This document shows positions 2,902 to 54,800 of a DNA stretch of 64,000 bases, one piece after another. The notes below the pieces were generated by a model that saw nothing but the letters and a program-made list of their open reading frames with translations, was not told the DNA's origin and did not search any database. Position 1 is the first letter of the stretch; the number at the start of each line of letters is the position of its first letter. A program made the translations under genes and the position numbers. Source of the stretch: Siphlonurus alternatus. Lineage: Eukaryota; Arthropoda; Insecta; Ephemeroptera; Siphlonuridae. The stretch is taken from NCBI GenBank assembly GCA_949825025.1, contig OX463781.1, positions 42,029,469 through 42,093,468 on the forward strand. Direction: 5' to 3'.

Positions 2902-37164
<34,263 letters not shown>

Positions 37165-44200: not shown

Positions 44201-45676
44201 TACTGTTAATATGGTACTAATATGGTGCCTTGAAATCTACTTTATTGTAGAATTAGTAAAATAAAATTGGTTCATATTTTTATGTAGTTTTACATAATAT
44301 TTTTCACAGATTTATTAATAATATCTCTGGTACAGAGAGAGCAATAAAAGACACCGCCCCTTTACTTTGATCAATCAAGCCGTCTGTGCTCACCTAGGCA
44401 AGGCGTGCGGGGCTTGGGTATTGAGCTGCTGGCAGGCGAAGTGCAGGGCGCTCTGCAGGGGCAGGCTGGGCTGTGAGGGCACACGGATGTTGGAGCTGAC
44501 CCGCAGCCCCGCCTCCCCCTCCTCTTCAATTTTCACCACCTCCCACTGCTGCACAGCAAAAAAGTGTCACTTAATACGTCTTTAGGGTGGGATGAGTACC
44601 AGTATTTAAAAATTGGATCAGAATACAATATTGACATGGTGGAAAAAAATCCTAACTGCATTGGTAAGCTAGAAAAAAATATTCTTACTTTATTTTGCTT
44701 ACCAATGGAGTTAGGTTATTTTTCTGCTACCACGTCCATATTAAATTTAAATACACAAGTTAAACGATTTCTAAGTTTGTAGTTATAAATAAAACACAGT
44801 ATTTAATGACTAAGCCTTTTCATTTTTTGATCCTTGAGCTATAACTTTTAACTAATTCGGATGAAGCGTTTTTTAATCAGCAAGTAAATTTACAGTGTCT
44901 ATTTTATTTTTTATTTTTTTCAATCATCCCCCTAAAAATCATCAACCTACACGCTACTGTTTACAAAGGACACTTTGGTATTGTAATTTTGTAGCCAAAT
45001 TGAAACCAAATTGATATAGAAAAGCTCAATCTTTACTCTTGCTTTGTGTAACAATGTTTTCATAGGATTAAGTGAACTAAAATTATAGCTTGAACTTAAT
45101 TATGATAAGTAAAGAAAGAAAATGAACGAATATGAAAATATAAACAACAAACAATGTAGACAAGGTTCTCCAAGAAGGGTTGTAAAACTCACCGGCAGGG
45201 CCTGCAGCAGGGTGGCTGCGTCTGCTGAGAGGGGGAGGGGCGAGAGGGAGTTGTGGAGGCGAGATGCGAGGGCGAGGGCCCAGCACCGGAGCACCGACAG
45301 ACTCTCTGCCTCGAGCTGTCGGCCCAGCGACTGCCACTCCACTCCCACACACTGCAGAGAGCCGAGAAGGGCAGGCTGGAATAACCAACATACCAGTGAA
45401 CATTTTGATGACTTCATTGGTTAGTTTGCTCATTCTAATGCACTTAATGATTCATGTCACTAGTCAAAATATTTACTAATTCTATGTAGATGGTGACTCT
45501 AACGTACATACATACCATTATTATTACCTCGGCCATCCACAGATAGACCTCCACTGTCTATTCTTACATACTTATCTTGCTTCAGATACACTCATGATAC
45601 TCTTTTGTCTTCTATTGCATAAAATATTTCTGACATGCCTTTTCTTCATTCTGCAATCACCTAGCTCCAGGCAACC

Positions 45677-45728
<52 letters not shown>

Positions 45729-45782
45729 CAAAAATTAAATACAGCTCGACGTATTTAAAACCTATCACCGCAGGTGCTGCCA

Positions 45783-45872
<90 letters not shown>

Positions 45873-48800
45873 TGGCAGCACCTGCGGTGATAGGTTTTAA
45901 ATACGTCGAGCTGTATTTAATTTTTGTAATTATATAGTTTTTATAACTGAAATAGGTGTAAAATAGTGGCCTATAGTTTTATGAATATTAAGTGCACAGA
46001 TTGGAGTGAAAAAGAACAAGAAAAGTGTTATATTAATATTGAAAAAGTGTTTTGTTTGAGAAGCTGCCAAATATGGCGGCAAACAATCTCTACTCCTGTG
46101 GAAATTTTGGGATGCCGTCTGCAATTCGGTATAACCATCACTTTCCACCTCCACCATGGGCACCTCCTACAACAGGCCAACCTGATCTACAGCATAACTA
46201 CAAAGATGGCATAAGTATTGCTCAAAAAAATCTTATAGAAAAAGATGATAGTAAAATAATTGACAACAATATTTTTTTATCCATGCAAAACGACATAAAA
46301 AAATTACACTCAACTATAGAAGAAATTAAAAGTATCATTAGCAATAACACAAATATTAAAAGACATAATACTATAAATGAAAGAAATAATGTCGTGCATT
46401 CATATGGAGAGCAGCCATCTTTTAAGAGTATTCATAATCCTGTCGTTTCGCAGCAAGAAAGCTCGCAGTCTCGGATCAACGTGCAATATCGTGCTCGTCA
46501 GCGCACAGACGAATTCCGTCAACCAGTGCCAAGGTCAGCCCGGCCACCTGCACGTGGACCGCCGCGTCACACACCACGTCATCATGAGCCTGCGGGTATT
46601 TCTCCTCTGCCACTGAGAAATTTTTACTCACCATTGTCATCGAATGTAAACAACATTCCACACCGAAACCTACCTCAACGTCAACAAGCACCACGGCCTA
46701 ATTCACGTGAGTTACAAACAAGAATTAGGTCACACAAAAACTTTAAATTTTCAGAAGAGAGAGGTGATTTGTTTGACTGTCCCCCGGGTATAGCTTTCGC
46801 CCACTCTACTGCAGAGGATCTGTGGATGGGACGTGGAGTCGCCTCTGTTGTTAAACGCAAATATGGCAAAGTCTCCTTTCTTAAAAGTCAGTTAAAAAAG
46901 AAGGGAGAGGTAGCAGTATTAGAAACTGAGGAGAGAATAATATTTTATTTAATATCAAAAACTACATCTAATTCTTTGCCATTTATGGAAGATTTACGAT
47001 CATGCTTAAAAAATCTGAAACTGGCCTGTCAAATTCTTCAAATAAAGCAACTAGCTTTACCTCGCATAGGTAGTAAGCGTGATCGTCTACCATGGGAGCA
47101 GGTTAGAGAAGAATTAATTGATATTTTCAAAAATATGGATATAGCTATAACGGTGTATTATGACTGGAAACACAAAAAAATGGAAAAGAACGAGGAGCAG
47201 ACAATTCCAAAATCCCTTGCTGGAGATTACGTCACAAAAACTTTAGATAATCCAGAAGCAAATGTTTCATTTAATACACTGACACCTCAAATGGCTCTCG
47301 AAAGCAAAATTTCAACCTCTCCACCTGTTACCCGTCCTCTTGTCGTCACACATGTTGCAGAGGACATTGTCAAGCAGGTGGTGGTACCGTCAGCCGACCA
47401 GCAGCAGGCGACATCCACTGCCCTGGATGAGCCAGTACATAGGTCGGAGAAAAACGCTTTAGCCGTGTCCCTCGAAAGTGGAGACAAGGTAACATCACCA
47501 GCAGCATCGGCGAGAGCGGTGGGGACCGCCACGCACAGCCCGAGCCGTGTCACGACTGGGATGGGGAACACGCTGCCAGATCGTGGTTTGTCCTTGCTCC
47601 CCAGTGCTCCTCCATTCTCCCCATTTCAACAACTCCATAATAATTTTTCCCCAAGTGCACCGAATCTCTCACAGTTCACACAAAATACTGGTGAGTCATC
47701 AGTTTTGTTATCATCTCTTTTTCCCGCAGTTGAAGACGAGAAAGAGGTTGAAAGGTACAATCAGGCAATTAAATCTGCTGATTTAAATAAATCAGCCCTT
47801 GATGAATATAATGAATTTTGTGAAAATACATTAGCAGATGATAATGGTTTTGAGCGTAATGATAATAATAGGTTTCAGCATTCTCCTGAAACAATAAATC
47901 AAAACCACCATCGTCTTCGACCCCGAAATGTTGCTCAAAGTCAAAATTTTTCCCGCAAAAAAAGTCAGATCAAAAAAATTTAAGGAATAATTTAAGTGTA
48001 ATTTCAATTTTGCAGCTAAATATTCCTGGCTTTAAATCAAAATTAACATTATTTGAATCATTACTTGAATCTGAAAACACTGATATAGCGCTGATATGTG
48101 AACATGGGCTTAAGGATGATGAATTAAATACAATTGTATTTCAAAACTATAAGCTAGTAAGCTCTTTTTGTCGCACTTTACAAGTAAAAGGAGGGGTAGC
48201 AATATTTGCTAGAAAAGAGATGAATATTAGTAAAATAAACATAGAGTCAATAGAGTCATGTTTTGAATGCTGTCTTGCAAAATTAAAAATTAGTAAATCA
48301 CAGAGCATATTTTTTGCATCTTTATATAGGTCCCCGAAATATTTCAAAAAAGGTGTTTTGTGTATAGAAGAAAAGAGTATTAATAAATTTTTAGATTGTT
48401 TCGAGGATATGTGTCTTAAAATTTTAGACAAATGTAAAATAAATGACAAAATAATATTAGGTGGAGATGTAAATATCAATATTTTGAAAACAAACAATGT
48501 CACAAATCGATATATGGACTTACTGCAGTCATTTTCTTTATATATTATAAATCAGCTTCCAACCAGAGTAACTAATAAAACTGCAACATTGATAGACCAT
48601 ATAATAACAAAAAATACAGAATTTGTTCAACAATATTTTAGTAAAAAAACTATTTTATCTGATCATAACTACACTGTTGTTAAATTCAAGTTTAGTTCAA
48701 TTGATACAATAAAGCACAGTAAAATTGTTACTTATACAGTTAGAAATTTTAGCCAAGAAAATTATGAATACTTGTTTAGAATGTTAATTAACGAAAATTG

Positions 48801-51800
48801 GTTAGAAGTATTAAATCCTGAATTAAGTATTGAAGAAAAATGGGAAATATTCATTAATATATTTTTGTTTCACTTCAATGAAGCATTCCCCAAAAAAACA
48901 AAAAAAGTTGATATGTGTTTAAATAAGCCAAGTTGGATTAAAAATAATCCTCATTTGGCAGTATAAGGGAAAGTGTTAAAAGAATTATTTATAGAAGCAA
49001 AATATATTAATCCTGACTTGATGCCAGAGTACAAAAATAAATTAAAAATACATAAACAGAAAATAAATAAGGCAATAAAAGCTGAGGGTGACATTGAAAT
49101 AAATAAAGCTGATAATAAAATAAAAGCTGGATGGAAAATTATAAAAAGTAAATGCACTCTCTCAAAAGTTAATAATAATAACAATAATTGCGTTATAGAA
49201 ATTACAGTTGATGGTGAGCCAGTATCATCTCCTGCTGAAATAAGTAACATTTTAAATACCTATTTTGTTAAAACAATTGAAAATTTAATTTCTGAGAATT
49301 TTTCTAATACCTTTAAATCTATTGATAATCAAAATTTCATTCATTTAGAAACACAGCAAAAATTTGAATTTCAAAATATCGACTATTTTAAACTGTTACA
49401 GCATATTAATAACCTGCCAAATAAAAATGCGGCAGGACCAGATGAGATACCGTATACGGTAATAAAATACTGTAAAAAATTATTAACAGTTCCATTAACA
49501 TTTCTCATTAATAACTCCATTACACAGGGAGTATATCCTAAAATTTTAAAAAAATCTATTGTCAATCCATATTTTAAAGAGGGTGATAAAAAATTAATAA
49601 CTAATTATAGAGGCATAACTAAATCTTCAGTGTTTTCGAAGTTATTTGAAAGTGTTTTGGATGAACAATTAACAAATTATAGAATAGAAAATGACCTTAT
49701 TGCACAATGTGAGCATGGTTTTGTGAAAAATAGATCCACTACTACTGCAGCCTTTGATCTTTTAAGTACAGTATACTCAGCCATTGACAATAAAAAATTT
49801 TGCATTGCTATTTTTTTTGATTTATCAAAAGCTTTCGACTCCCTAAACAAAAAAATTGTAATTAATAAATTGAAAAATATTGGAGGCGTTGAAAACAGTT
49901 TAAAATTAATTGACTCATATCTCTCTGATCGGCAGCAATATGTTGAAATCAATTGTGTTACAGACAGCAAGAATTCTTTGGTTAAATCTGATATCCTACC
50001 CCTAACATTAGGGGTTCCGCAGGGGGGAAAAATTTCTCCAAGCTTATTTGGTATTGGAACAAATGATATTTTCAATCATATACTAAGTGCTAAAATAATT
50101 AAATATGCGGATGATACAACAGCAGTTATTGTTGCCGATAAGGAAGAAGAATTATTATTAAAAACAAAGCAAACTTTATGTGATATGAAAAAATGGTGTG
50201 ATAGCAATCAATTAGTATTAAATGATAAAAAAACTGCTTTTATTCAATTTCACTCTTACAGAAATATACAGTCTCATAGTTACTTACTTAAATTAAATAA
50301 TAACGCTCAATCAATTAAAAGAGTCGAGTATACAAAATTCTTAGGATTTAATATTCAGGAATGTTTTGACTGGAAGACACATATTGATTATGTTATAAAA
50401 AAAATAAACTCAGCAAATTTTGTACTTTTCTCCATCAGGGACCATGTATCAATTGAATCTCTTTTCTCAATTTATTATGCTTATGTTTATTCGCATTTAA
50501 CTTACGGTCTTATTTTCTTTGGAACTGATAATCAATCAATATGTAGGCTTTTTATTGCACAGAAACGATCATTAAGAACAATGCTGAGATTTAGGAAGAG
50601 AGATTCATGTGTATCGCATTTTAAAAGACACAATATGCTAACGTTGCCTTCATTGTATATTTTAAACAGTGCACTATTTAGAAAACAGCATCCTGAATTA
50701 TACGATCATAATCAGCATTCATATGAAACAAGAAACAGAACAAAAACTGTAGTAGCTAATCACAAATCAGCTTTATTGGAGAAAAGTCCTTTATATCAGT
50801 CAGCTAAAATTTATGACTTTTTACCAGCATGTATTAGAAACATTGATAGTCATAAATTGTTCAAAGCAAAACTGAAATCTATCCTGATAAAAAGAGAATT
50901 TTATTCAGTGAAAATGTTTTTTGCTAATAAGCTACCTGAAAATTGTCTTGTAGAGTAAATAATTGTAAACTTGATATTGTAATGTTTCAGTATATAGTGA
51001 TGACATAATATATATGGATATATATTGTAATATATGACTCTTAAAATATTGTAATTTTGTATATAATTTATTTTAAAGAATTTTGTTTGCATTGCTAATG
51101 TTGTATAGTTTTAGGAATGACCTGATTTATGTTGTATTGTACAGCCATTAATCAAATAAAGTATTATTATTATTATTATTATTTACTTTAAAAAGTGCAC
51201 AAAAACTAACATCCATACTTTGAAATATTTATTTTTCACGACAAATTACTTTAATAAATCTGATTAGGGTTTTTTAAGAAAGGCATTATTCAGATCGGGA
51301 CTTTTGATTGTCTCCATGACAACCAAATGGCATCAACACAAGACACCATTTCCACTTTAAAATACTCTCACCTTGGTGGGGTCCCACACCGCATCTGGGC
51401 TCATGGCACGCTGCAGGTGGGGACACAGGTCACACACGGCCTGCAGGAAGCGACCCAGCAACATCAGCGAGGCCTCACGATGACAGCCATCTCCATCAGG
51501 CTTGGCAACTCGAGCCCGCACAAAGGTGATCACCCTATCACAAAAAGTCACATCAAATGACACAACGGAGAGAACATTTTCAACATATTTTAATCTTTCA
51601 ACTTATTTTTTTTACCTGTCATAACTCCCAATTTAGAGATTTAGATTTAAAACTAGTAAAATATTTATTTTCTACATAACCTTTTTTTATTTCTTTTACC
51701 TTTACACTACTCTCTTTTCAAAAAAAAAAAAAAAAAAATTTCCCTTTCCTCTTTTATTTTTAGACAAAAGTGTTAATATATTTAATAATAATAATAATAA

Positions 51801-54800
51801 TAATTCCGCTCTGTGGTGTAGTGGTTAGTACCTCTGACTCTGGTCCGAGAGGTCTCCGGTTCAATACCCGAATCCGGCAGACTTTTCGTGACTTGGGATG
51901 GGTGTGACTGACTACTAGATGATGGAGTGGTAGGAGGAAGGCAGTTTACGATTGTCTATACTCCGCTGCCCTGCAGTCTTGCACTGCCACTGCAGGCTGC
52001 ACAGATCTGATAGTAGGAGCCCAGAAGAGTGCAGAAAAGGGTTCTGGGAGCCTGGTAAGCCCCAGCTCGGTCGCAAGATAACTCCTACTGGAAAGGCTAA
52101 AATATCGGCCTGGCCTCACTCAAAAGGGTAATAACGGCGTCAAGGATATATTTTAATAATAATAATATTTATATGTAGTTAATATATATTGTACCCCTTT
52201 AGAAAATTAATGTATTCCATCAAATTGTCAATTTAAGCAATTAAAAACCATTCTTCTTCATCTTTGATGCTTGTGACACATATCCTAACTGCAAGATAAG
52301 GACACTCACTCTTGCATGCAGTTTGTGGTGCAGGCCTGCAGATGTCTCTGCAGCTCCGGACGGTCCACAAACTTGTCGAAGGCGTCCTCGTGCCTCTTCT
52401 CCGAGAGGACTGCGAGACGGTCCGAGGTGCCGCGGTCCACGTACAGCAGGAGGTCCTCCAGCAGCACTTGCAGTTGCTGGTCGAGGCCGCGGCACAGACG
52501 CTGCACGCTCGGAGAGTAGCCCAGTGACTTGAGAAGCAGGCCTGACAACAGAGGGTATGTTATCTTAGGCACAATGTCCAGCAAGAACAGAGTAAATAGA
52601 GCTGATTGCGCTGACGTCATACCCCTGTAAGTTAAGCTGCCCTATGGAGGACCAGAATACACAGACTAGTATATAAACAAATTATGTATTGATTTTTTTT
52701 TTTTCTTTTTTTCACTTTATTAAACAAAACAAATCAGGTTTAAATTTTTGTAAAAATACGCCGATACACGATATCTACTTCTTCTTGTGACTGAAGAAGC
52801 ATCTCCACGATGCGAAACGTTTCAAAAATGTAAAAACTTTCGAGTGAACCTCTGTGACCACAAGAATTTCCACCTGCTGTGACTCTTTCGATCGGTAAGG
52901 CCTTGCTGGTTATTCCTATCCTTTTCTTTTAATAAGATACACGATAGATAGTATAAAAATAATCCCATCTTTATAGAACAATCAAAACTATTTTTTTCTA
53001 TTTATATTTGTCATTTCTCCTATCTAATGCCATAGTAGCTGGACCTCCACTTTCTCTTTTCTACCCTCCTGACCGTCCGTATACCTGCTATGCTATTTTT
53101 CCTCGTAAACAAAAACAGCAAACAACTCTATACACTCAGTTCTTTAATCTGAACTCATCATTTTAATTTGGTACTTTGTAACAAAATTGAATTAAAACAT
53201 CACAGGCACCTTGAATTTGTTTATAATTCTCTATAAAATTTTAGTTACGAGCAAGACTTTAAAACTGAAGATATTTTAAGGTTACGGTAACGTGCTCAAT
53301 GTTAAAAAAATTCCCACACATGAAAATAATGAAACATATACCTTAAAATGTTCTCCTTTACTTTCCCTATCAGTAGCTAAAATATCAGGTAGACAAATTC
53401 GTGCTAGTTATGAATTTTTAAAATTGACTAATTTAACATGGAAAAGTGGAACTCCCATGTTAAATTAGCCAACTTCAAAAATTAATAACTCAAAAACTAG
53501 ATCGAATTTATACAACTGATATTTTAGCTACTGATAGGGGATGTAGAGGAGTACGTATTAAGATATGTTTCATAATGTTCATAAGTGGGAATTTTTTTAA
53601 CATTGGGCACATTACCTAACCCTTAAAGTCAATTTCACATTAATTATCACGCAGTAAGTGACCAACATTTTCTTAATGTAATACAAGGTGATTTGGTTCT
53701 CTTAGTGTCCACCAGGTGTATCACCTCCTGCTTGGTTGACGGTGCGCGAGGCTTGCGTCATCCAGCCCCCAGCGGTGGGCAGGTCACCCGCCTCCTCCCT
53801 CCACACAAACCACCGAACGTCCCGCTCTCCCCTGCAAACATGAGCAATACGAAGTGAATGTCCGTGATTTTAGAGACTCCATTCTCAAACCAATTTAGTT
53901 AAATATGGATTACTGGGTAAAGTAATAAACTCCAATAATAACTTTAAGAAATATTTAAAACTATTTGAAAATATTATATATATTATAGAAGTAGTAGGAA
54001 CACAAGCTTAAAAAAATACAACAATAATGAAGAAACAAAAATAAGATAAATAAATAAACGAATAAAAATTAGACGCAGATTTAGGAGAAATAATTAAATT
54101 CAAGTGCAGTACGACTTTATTAAATTTTAAATCCATTTTAAACAAACCTTTAAAATTAAATGACCTACAGCAAATTGATATAAATAGGATTTTAAGAAAT
54201 CAACAACAAAATAAAACTTGTTATTACATAAAGTCAAGGGACCCAGGAAATTAGGTTTATCGTATATAATCAAATATTACCTTATATCGAGTTTTTCCTA
54301 TAACTGCAATCCTATCGTAATTATTTTTTACAGTACCGTGATCTTCTTTACTCAAAATTGAGTTTTACCTAACAACAAGTTGCGTAGTTACGAGTTTTTT
54401 CAGCATTACAGCACACATATGCAATTCTCACAGTATCCCTAGACTATTCGACTATTCTACACTCACTTGTCCGTGGCGAGGTCTCTCAGTGCTTGCTCCA
54501 GTTTGGCTCGCAGCTCAGTCGACACTTGCTGTAACTGCTGCTCCACCAGCGCTCGCACCCTCTGGGTCAGCAGGGGGCGGAAGGCCAGCTCCCAGACTGC
54601 ACCCCCCTGACTGCCCGCCCCCTGACTGGTGACGTGTGCTGCCTCCCTGATGGCTTGCACGCCGTGAACGGAGCTCACATAGCCTAGTAGCAGCCTCAGA
54701 CGAGAGCTGACCTCCGTACGAACCTCATCGAGCCAGGCCTCGCGAGCAGAGTCAAGCTGGGAGCTACTCAGACTCTCCACTCCCTGGCCCAGGTGCGGCC

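Follow-up and report, generated by a model that had tools for sequence, protein, structure and literature searches.

A TARG1-type macrodomain with both catalytic dyad residues in the ORF1 protein of LINE elements of Siphlonurus alternatus

The locus raises the question of whether the first open reading frame (ORF1) of a LINE element carries a macrodomain of the TARG1 type and what such a domain would do for the element. TARG1, also named OARD1 or C6orf130, is a macrodomain hydrolase of the ALC1-like class, and the bacterial antitoxin macrodomain DarG is of the same class. The first-pass annotation of the window (the whole stretch of 64,000 nucleotides that was analysed) had placed a TARG1-like macrodomain in ORF1. 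The region in question was translated into 139 residues free of stops and lying within ORF1, and the coordinates of all features are collected in Table 1. The Pfam Macro profile gave a significant match, with E values of 5.7e-6 for the whole ORF and 4.4e-7 for the domain, both exceeding the gathering score. The human TARG1 sequence from the PDB matched residues 5-138 of the domain with an E value of 2.7e-29 and 105 bits. The score of the domain against the human TARG1 stretch is 104 bits while the top score of 1000 shuffled versions is 6.2 bits. The predicted model of the domain revealed a macrodomain fold whose nearest structure is TARG1, thereby bearing out the annotation; comparison of the predicted model also indicated a fold in common with the alphavirus and rubella macrodomains. 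The identity of the LINE domain to DarG is 25%, which is lower than its identity to TARG1. In the alignments the equivalents of TARG1 Lys84 and Asp125 are Lys296 and Asp337, exactly as annotated when the residues are counted from the ATG, and the ORF1 domain is confirmed as a TARG1-type macrodomain with the catalytic dyad residues present. It differs from TARG1 in sitting within a protein of 636 residues and in the loop preceding the Asp, which reads GSKRD in the window subfamily and GCGLD in TARG1; hydrolase activity of the LINE domain is what we infer from this homology, and owing to the loop its kinetics may differ. Macro was the sole Pfam entry for the window ORF1 up to an E value of 1, and RRM, CCHC, PHD and esterase domains were not seen at this limit, where divergent domains could be missed.

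Table 1. Coordinates of the macrodomain-bearing LINE element and its parts in the window
Feature	Position	Strand	Basis
Perfect palindrome, two 109-nt arms around (TA)n, at element 5' end	45719..45936	.	self-comparison
LINE element with macrodomain (ends approximate)	45869..51190	+	aligned sibling copies from two further loci, 98.9-99.1% identity
ORF1, 636 aa from first ATG 46073 (643 aa from TTG 46052)	46073..47983	+	ORF reading; Pfam Macro
Predicted long coiled-coil-like helix of ORF1, residues 67-114 in 643-aa count	46250..46393	+	AlphaFold, ten-residue pLDDT means 47-82
TARG1/OARD1-type macrodomain	46745..47161	+	translation, Pfam Macro, TARG1 match, predicted model, shuffle test
Codon of TARG1 Lys84 equivalent (Lys296 from ATG)	46958..46960	+	alignments
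Codon of TARG1 Asp125 equivalent (Asp337 from ATG)	47081..47083	+	alignments
ORF2 part 1, APE-like endonuclease; open frame to in-frame TAA	47890..48966	+	weak profile matches
ORF2 part 2, reverse transcriptase and C-terminal region, frame shared with endonuclease	48967..50958	+	RVT_1 2.4e-26
(ATT)n 3' tail	51163..51184	+	sequence

The setting of the domain in a LINE ORF1, as annotated, was upheld by the frame downstream, in which an endonuclease (EN) is followed by a reverse transcriptase (RT; RVT_1 2.4e-26). The RT motifs FDLSKAFD and KYADD were read directly in ORF2 and the YADD-type motif is intact. The endonuclease matched Exo_endo_phos at 2.2e-4 with 21.5 bits, below the cut-off of 24.5, and an exodeoxyribonuclease III model at 2.5e-4, far below the cut-off of that model. 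Further hallmarks of LINEs are the dispersed copies with differing flanks, the 3' tail and 5'-truncated copies, with no ORF1 upstream of RT in L045-L047. The sibling alignments begin at 45868/45869 and stop at 51183/51193, with flanking DNA that differs between the places. Sibling L010, 98.9% identical to the window over 5325 bp, contains ORF1 and an ORF2 of 1022 codons without stops, with EN and RT in one frame; sibling L009 carries an insertion of about 2 kb inside the endonuclease. In the window copy ORF2 lies in the -1 frame and shares 94 nt with ORF1, and one in-frame TAA (48964-48966) separates EN from RT, owing to which this copy is probably not autonomous. The palindrome repeats the first ~68 nt of the element upstream in inverted form; the L009 and L010 alignments start at the element end and do not include it, and it is either a product of fold-back synthesis or an assembly artefact. 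No convincing target-site duplication was seen in 10 copies inspected, the element ends being inexact, and Rfam returned nothing at gathering score over 45000-52700. AlphaFold modelling of the whole ORF1, for which the alignment had two rows, gave a poor model with a mean pLDDT of 40.8.

Lineages differ in the frame of ORF2 relative to ORF1: of 21 copies, 8 have ORF2 at -1 (window, L009-L012, L026-L028) and the remaining 13 at +1. Thirteen of the 21 lack an ATG in the ORF2 frame as far as 120 nt beyond the point where the endonuclease match begins, and in 4 an ATG precedes that point; a programmed frameshift from ORF1 to ORF2 was considered. The C-terminal halves of ORF1 contain minisatellite-like repeats (e.g. 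TPGEESGLASVNDG) whose number varies between near-identical copies, the related length differences being 75 and 30 codons in the pairs L024/L025 and L015/L017.

The distribution of the domain was analysed in the 455.7 Mb assembly of 102 contigs. The window ORF1 search gave 69 scored matches among 356 candidates, the human TARG1 stretch 150 among 311 and a divergent LINE domain 150 among 307. Pooling these with the search by a second ORF1 (L031, see below) and one fetched locus gave at least 242 distinct macrodomain places, a lower bound because only the best candidates were scored; the tally was compiled by hand, the divergent-domain and L031-ORF1 searches contributed only new-looking entries, and it includes four places interpreted as genes of host type (L029, L030, L038, L039) and some unclassified ones. 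A chance fusion at this one locus, which the first-pass annotation had allowed for, is thereby at odds with a domain present at a couple of hundred places. Twenty of the 69 ORF1 places (L009-L028) were picked to cover the identity range and fetched. The macrodomain was found in 20/20, and the pairing of ORF1 with ORF2, which the annotation had proposed to look for in further copies, was likewise seen in all of them, with query-independent EN and RT matches lying downstream in the same orientation. In L028 the RT match comprises 111 residues, and frames are broken in L009, L014, L016 and L023; measured between stops, the ORF1 frames have 434 to 789 codons, the broken ones being the shortest. 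Among the matches listed in the divergent-domain search, a single domain score recurs at about 40 places whose frame has 789 codons, and a second score at 16 places whose frame has 772 codons. L011 and L012 lie on different contigs and show no difference over 5276 bp, and the spread is therefore recent.

The window RT search gave 67 scored matches among 8063 candidates, and 26 of the 67 had a macrodomain within 7.5 kb upstream according to the ORF1- and TARG1-search lists. Seven of the other 41 were followed: four carried a macrodomain (C5:38623183, a partial domain; C2:33047382; L043; L044) and three lacked ORF1 (L045-L047). No alternative kind of ORF1 was found among these 26 and 7 of the 67 RT matches.

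The conservation of the dyad was examined in aligned copies. Both residues are present in 21/21 copies (window and 20 others) and in five further LINE domains (L031, L033, L040, L043, L044), that is in all 26 aligned LINE domains, with an adjacent loop varying as GCGRD, ACGRD, ACGKD, ATGRD and GSKRD. In 12 hand-picked divergent LINE domains 18 of the 139 positions are invariant, including both dyad residues, and lineages whose domains are 33-55% identical to that of the window retain the same two. The dN/dS ratio was calculated by the Nei-Gojobori method with our own script for 14 pairs; as some sequences occur in more than one pair, the pairs are not independent. In seven pairs with usable domain dS (0.5-2.6) the domain dN/dS was 0.042-0.131, while that of the N- and C-terminal flanks of ORF1 in the same pairs was 0.35-0.72, a range from low-complexity alignments and less reliable. 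The other seven gave no finite domain value in five (four saturated, one changeless) and few changes in two. The window/L010 domains differ by 7 silent and 0 replacement changes, and the L015/L017 domains by 1 silent and 1 replacement (ratio 0.26). The domain is under strong purifying selection, and no arms-race signature was seen within it in the pairs computed, their dN/dS being very low.

Comparison of copies revealed that the ORF1 N-terminus and macrodomain were swapped between LINE lineages. The window and L011 ORF1 are 68-98% identical over residues 1-400 (646-residue count, 50-residue blocks) and 40-64% from there to the end, while their ORF2 identity is 29-66%. The window and L026/L027 show 38-82% identity in ORF2, mostly 55-80%, while their macrodomains are just 36-38% identical. 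A clade of window, L010 and L011 was rejected in the RT tree (p-AU 2.3e-8), and a clade of window, L010, L026 and L027 in the macrodomain tree (p-AU 7e-4); both tests used 14 of the 21 copies and one outgroup per tree, with groups named after the identities seen. Long branches were flagged for L011 and the outgroup in the RT tree and for human TARG1 beside L026/L027 in the domain tree, which makes the macrodomain-tree test the weaker one. The block identities point to the same exchange independently of the trees. Reticulate evolution of ORF1 has been described for Jockey-superfamily LINEs (PMC4120745), and the module exchange observed here matches it. Altogether the results support a macrodomain that occurs across numerous LINE lineages, has been maintained by selection and has moved from one lineage to another.

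A different LINE contains three of the TARG1 matches that were fetched (L031, L032, L036). Its ORF1, of 531 residues in L031, consists of a PHD finger (1e-5), the macrodomain and a C-terminal region without Pfam match, which we take to resemble the esterase-like part of CR1 ORF1. ORF2 was looked at in these three loci, and an endonuclease-like frame lies behind ORF1 in 3/3; in L031 it gave matches of 8.3e-10 for the endonuclease and 4.6e-36 for RT. L031 and the window are 26% identical in RT and 42% in the macrodomain. The L031-ORF1 search gave about thirty related places, 21 of them covering the macrodomain. The Pfam Macro score is weak on some LINE domains (19.6 bits for L031 and 14.3 bits for L033, the cut-off being 22), and these two were assigned by their match to human TARG1 itself (E about 1e-35). 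L041 and L042 were also assigned to this second clade with PHD and TARG1-type macrodomain.

The origin of the domain was considered next to host-type genes and database proteins. The closest kin of the LINE domains is animal TARG1, namely host-type genes of the same genome such as L029 (53% identical to human TARG1) and proteins of Neodiprion, Zophobas and Cloeon. L029, L030, L038 and L039 were read as host-type because no window-type EN or RT lies beside them; L030 has an RT piece of a different kind nearby on the opposite strand. The first of two macrodomains in L039 has R and N at the dyad positions. The domain tree contained 34 rows after removal of 8 identical ones, with the window-side LINEs named LINE-A and the second (PHD) clade LINE-B. 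Fifteen of 18 LINE-A domains formed one supported group (96/90), and L033, L043 and L044 were placed without support. A single clade of the 18 was not rejected (p-AU 0.237), and LINE-A with LINE-B as one clade gave p-AU 0.137, values compatible with one capture as well as with several. The simplest reading, and a plausible one, is that the domain would derive from an animal TARG1 gene captured long ago; the capture of a host OARD1 gene suggested in the annotation agrees with nearest kin in animal TARG1 rather than bacterial DarG. A recent capture is unlikely because of the 33-55% domain identities and the saturated dS in four pairs.

The full ORF1 searched against 5.8 billion proteins gave one match among 7999 scored candidates, the metagenome protein P0002 of 628 aa with a TARG1-like domain on a contig of 2006 bases; the domain region alone gave no match among 181 candidates. 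The P0002 macrodomain region retrieved 7 proteins including itself, with insect members from Neodiprion, Zophobas and Cloeon; no RT or EN is listed for these by Pfam and they are read as host-type TARG1 proteins. Scans of viral and prokaryote contigs, collections that hold no animal genomes by design, with ORF1, P0002, RT, an RT alignment and a macrodomain alignment found no relative.

Some further arrangements of the domain were noted. L039 (1286-2989; G000 C3:10610285-10611988) is a gene of host type in which two TARG1 macrodomains in tandem precede SYKQPSQYQ-type repeats, and the metagenome protein P0004 has a similar two-domain layout. The database protein P0006 (703 aa, contig of 2580 bases) has a TARG1-type macrodomain at its end and a start without Pfam match, which looks like the C-terminal end of a LINE ORF2; it is possibly a third LINE arrangement.

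The likeliest role of the domain is that of an eraser in the ribonucleoprotein (RNP), which would end or limit the modification of target DNA ends, of the element RNA or of RNP proteins by ADP-ribose. The main reading, given a probability of about 0.6, is a two-ORF LINE whose ORF1 protein combines a predicted N-terminal coiled-coil-like helix, disordered-looking stretches and a TARG1-type macrodomain that would have been captured long ago and would act as such an eraser. TARG1 cleaves ADP-ribose esters on acidic residues and on nucleic-acid phosphate ends, is able to release whole chains and is a PARP1 interactor (PMC7050489). In this reading, an animal TARG1-like gene would have entered ORF1 long ago and diversified since then into many LINE lineages under strong purifying selection; ORF1p would coat the element RNA with the macrodomain inside the RNP; and the domain would hydrolyse, via the Lys/Asp dyad, mono-ADP-ribose esters on acidic residues or nucleic-acid phosphate ends, or strip whole chains at their base. 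The marks reversed may be PARP-type ones on the nicked target site, the element RNA or ORF1p/ORF2p, and their removal would let target-primed reverse transcription or RNP survival proceed. This suggests that the elements edit a host DNA-damage or defence signal during copying. For human L1, the gap at the integration site is recognised by PARP2, and about half of retrotransposition is lost without PARP1 or PARP2 and 80% without both (PMC8535693, a review citing Miyoshi 2019). Such help by PARPs is evidence against a simple eraser at the nick; removal of ADP-ribose there may harm the element, and the useful substrate may lie elsewhere.

Two rivals of the RNP eraser are the main ones. Viral macrodomains are thought to counter antiviral-PARP-like host restriction, and the LINE domain could similarly oppose host ADP-ribosylation of the element RNA or RNP proteins rather than act at the nick, with the enzymology of the RNP eraser and a different substrate. 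This somewhat unlikely counter-defence role is in accordance with the fold common to alphavirus and rubella macrodomains, with the swapping of the ORF1 N-terminus and macrodomain, which fits an advantage under conflict, and with a retroelement precedent, the macro domain ORFs carried by epsilon-like endogenous retroviruses of fish (PMC4977317, citing Basta 2009); however, the very low domain dN/dS without arms-race signature speaks against it. The domain may otherwise be a reader that binds poly- or mono-ADP-ribose, anchors the RNP in this way at DNA breaks, replication forks or the nucleolus and aids target-site choice. ADP-ribose binding by the macrodomain fold (PMC7050489), PARP activity at L1 integration sites (PMC8535693) and the altered loop of the window subfamily agree with a reader, and the dyad could be kept merely for binding; the completeness of the hydrolytic dyad in 26/26 domains despite the variable adjacent loop makes this role doubtful. 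A purely structural RNA-binding or assembly role, with the dyad kept for folding or through recent capture, is very improbable: ORF1 shows neither RRM nor CCHC by Pfam, so something else may have to bind RNA, but the same two residues persist at 33-55% domain identity and a recent capture fits poorly with the divergence and saturated dS. A chance fusion, pseudogene or assembly artefact at a single locus, suggested by the in-frame ORF2 stop and 5' palindrome of the window copy, is contradicted by the at least 242 places, the 20/20 EN-RT pairing and purifying selection, and has practically no standing.

The role of ORF1 proteins for LINEs is still unclear. The scheme of Khazina and Weichenrieder, which Metcalfe and Casane 2014 (PMC4120745) describe, comprises LINE ORF1 types I-V; these resemble the present one in an ORF1 before an EN-RT ORF2, a coiled-coil-like N-terminus and modular, reticulate evolution with ORF1 transfer among lineages; they differ in the RRM, CCHC, PHD and esterase domains, which Pfam did not show in the window ORF1. 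The main text of that paper contains no word starting with 'macro', and a macrodomain ORF1 would be a new LINE ORF1 type. Some insect LINEs have captured a viral SF1 helicase, Jockey-like ones in ORF1 and TRAS in ORF2 (PMC5563155). They resemble the window LINE in an ORF1 with an enzyme domain foreign to LINEs and with active-site motifs retained, but theirs is a helicase of viral origin and that of the window LINE an animal-type ADP-ribosyl hydrolase domain. The fish retroviruses above are also macrodomain-bearing retroelements, but are LTR retroviruses with the domain in an additional ORF and its class unstated in PMC4977317. In view of these precedents the novelty is the ORF1 type, domain capture itself being known. 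Titles and abstract starts in the literature, with few subscription papers or preprints and Repbase outside the scope, described no macrodomain or OARD1 in a LINE, and the mentions found in PMC7217437 and PMC5434184 are unrelated.

A wider proposal can be put forward tentatively. The macrodomain ORF1 might be a new functional class with its own ADP-ribosyl hydrolase, found in at least two LINE clades (the CR1-like PHD clade too), with the dyad kept through deep divergence and the domain passed on as a module because PARP-type ADP-ribosylation would act generally in animals as a barrier to target-primed reverse transcription or as its checkpoint. To our knowledge, whether PARPs help or block LINE insertion has been argued mainly from human L1, and the macrodomain LINEs make this question testable by a single loss-of-function residue change. 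They add a new domain type to LINE ORF1 and show that a selfish element can conserve a domain of an animal ADP-ribosylation enzyme, and their copies form a natural series of divergent TARG1 domains.

Other features were noted in the window. The stretches 6044-6832 and 8983-9489 are fragments resembling the ends of RT ORFs from other LINEs and matched the window RT; 17666-18076 resembles the 6044-6832 fragment by eye only. The stretch 19596-19991 is a PAS-domain exon of a host gene (PF00989, 2e-8), which, together with the stretch at about 34700-34934, looks like a PDE8-type phosphodiesterase.
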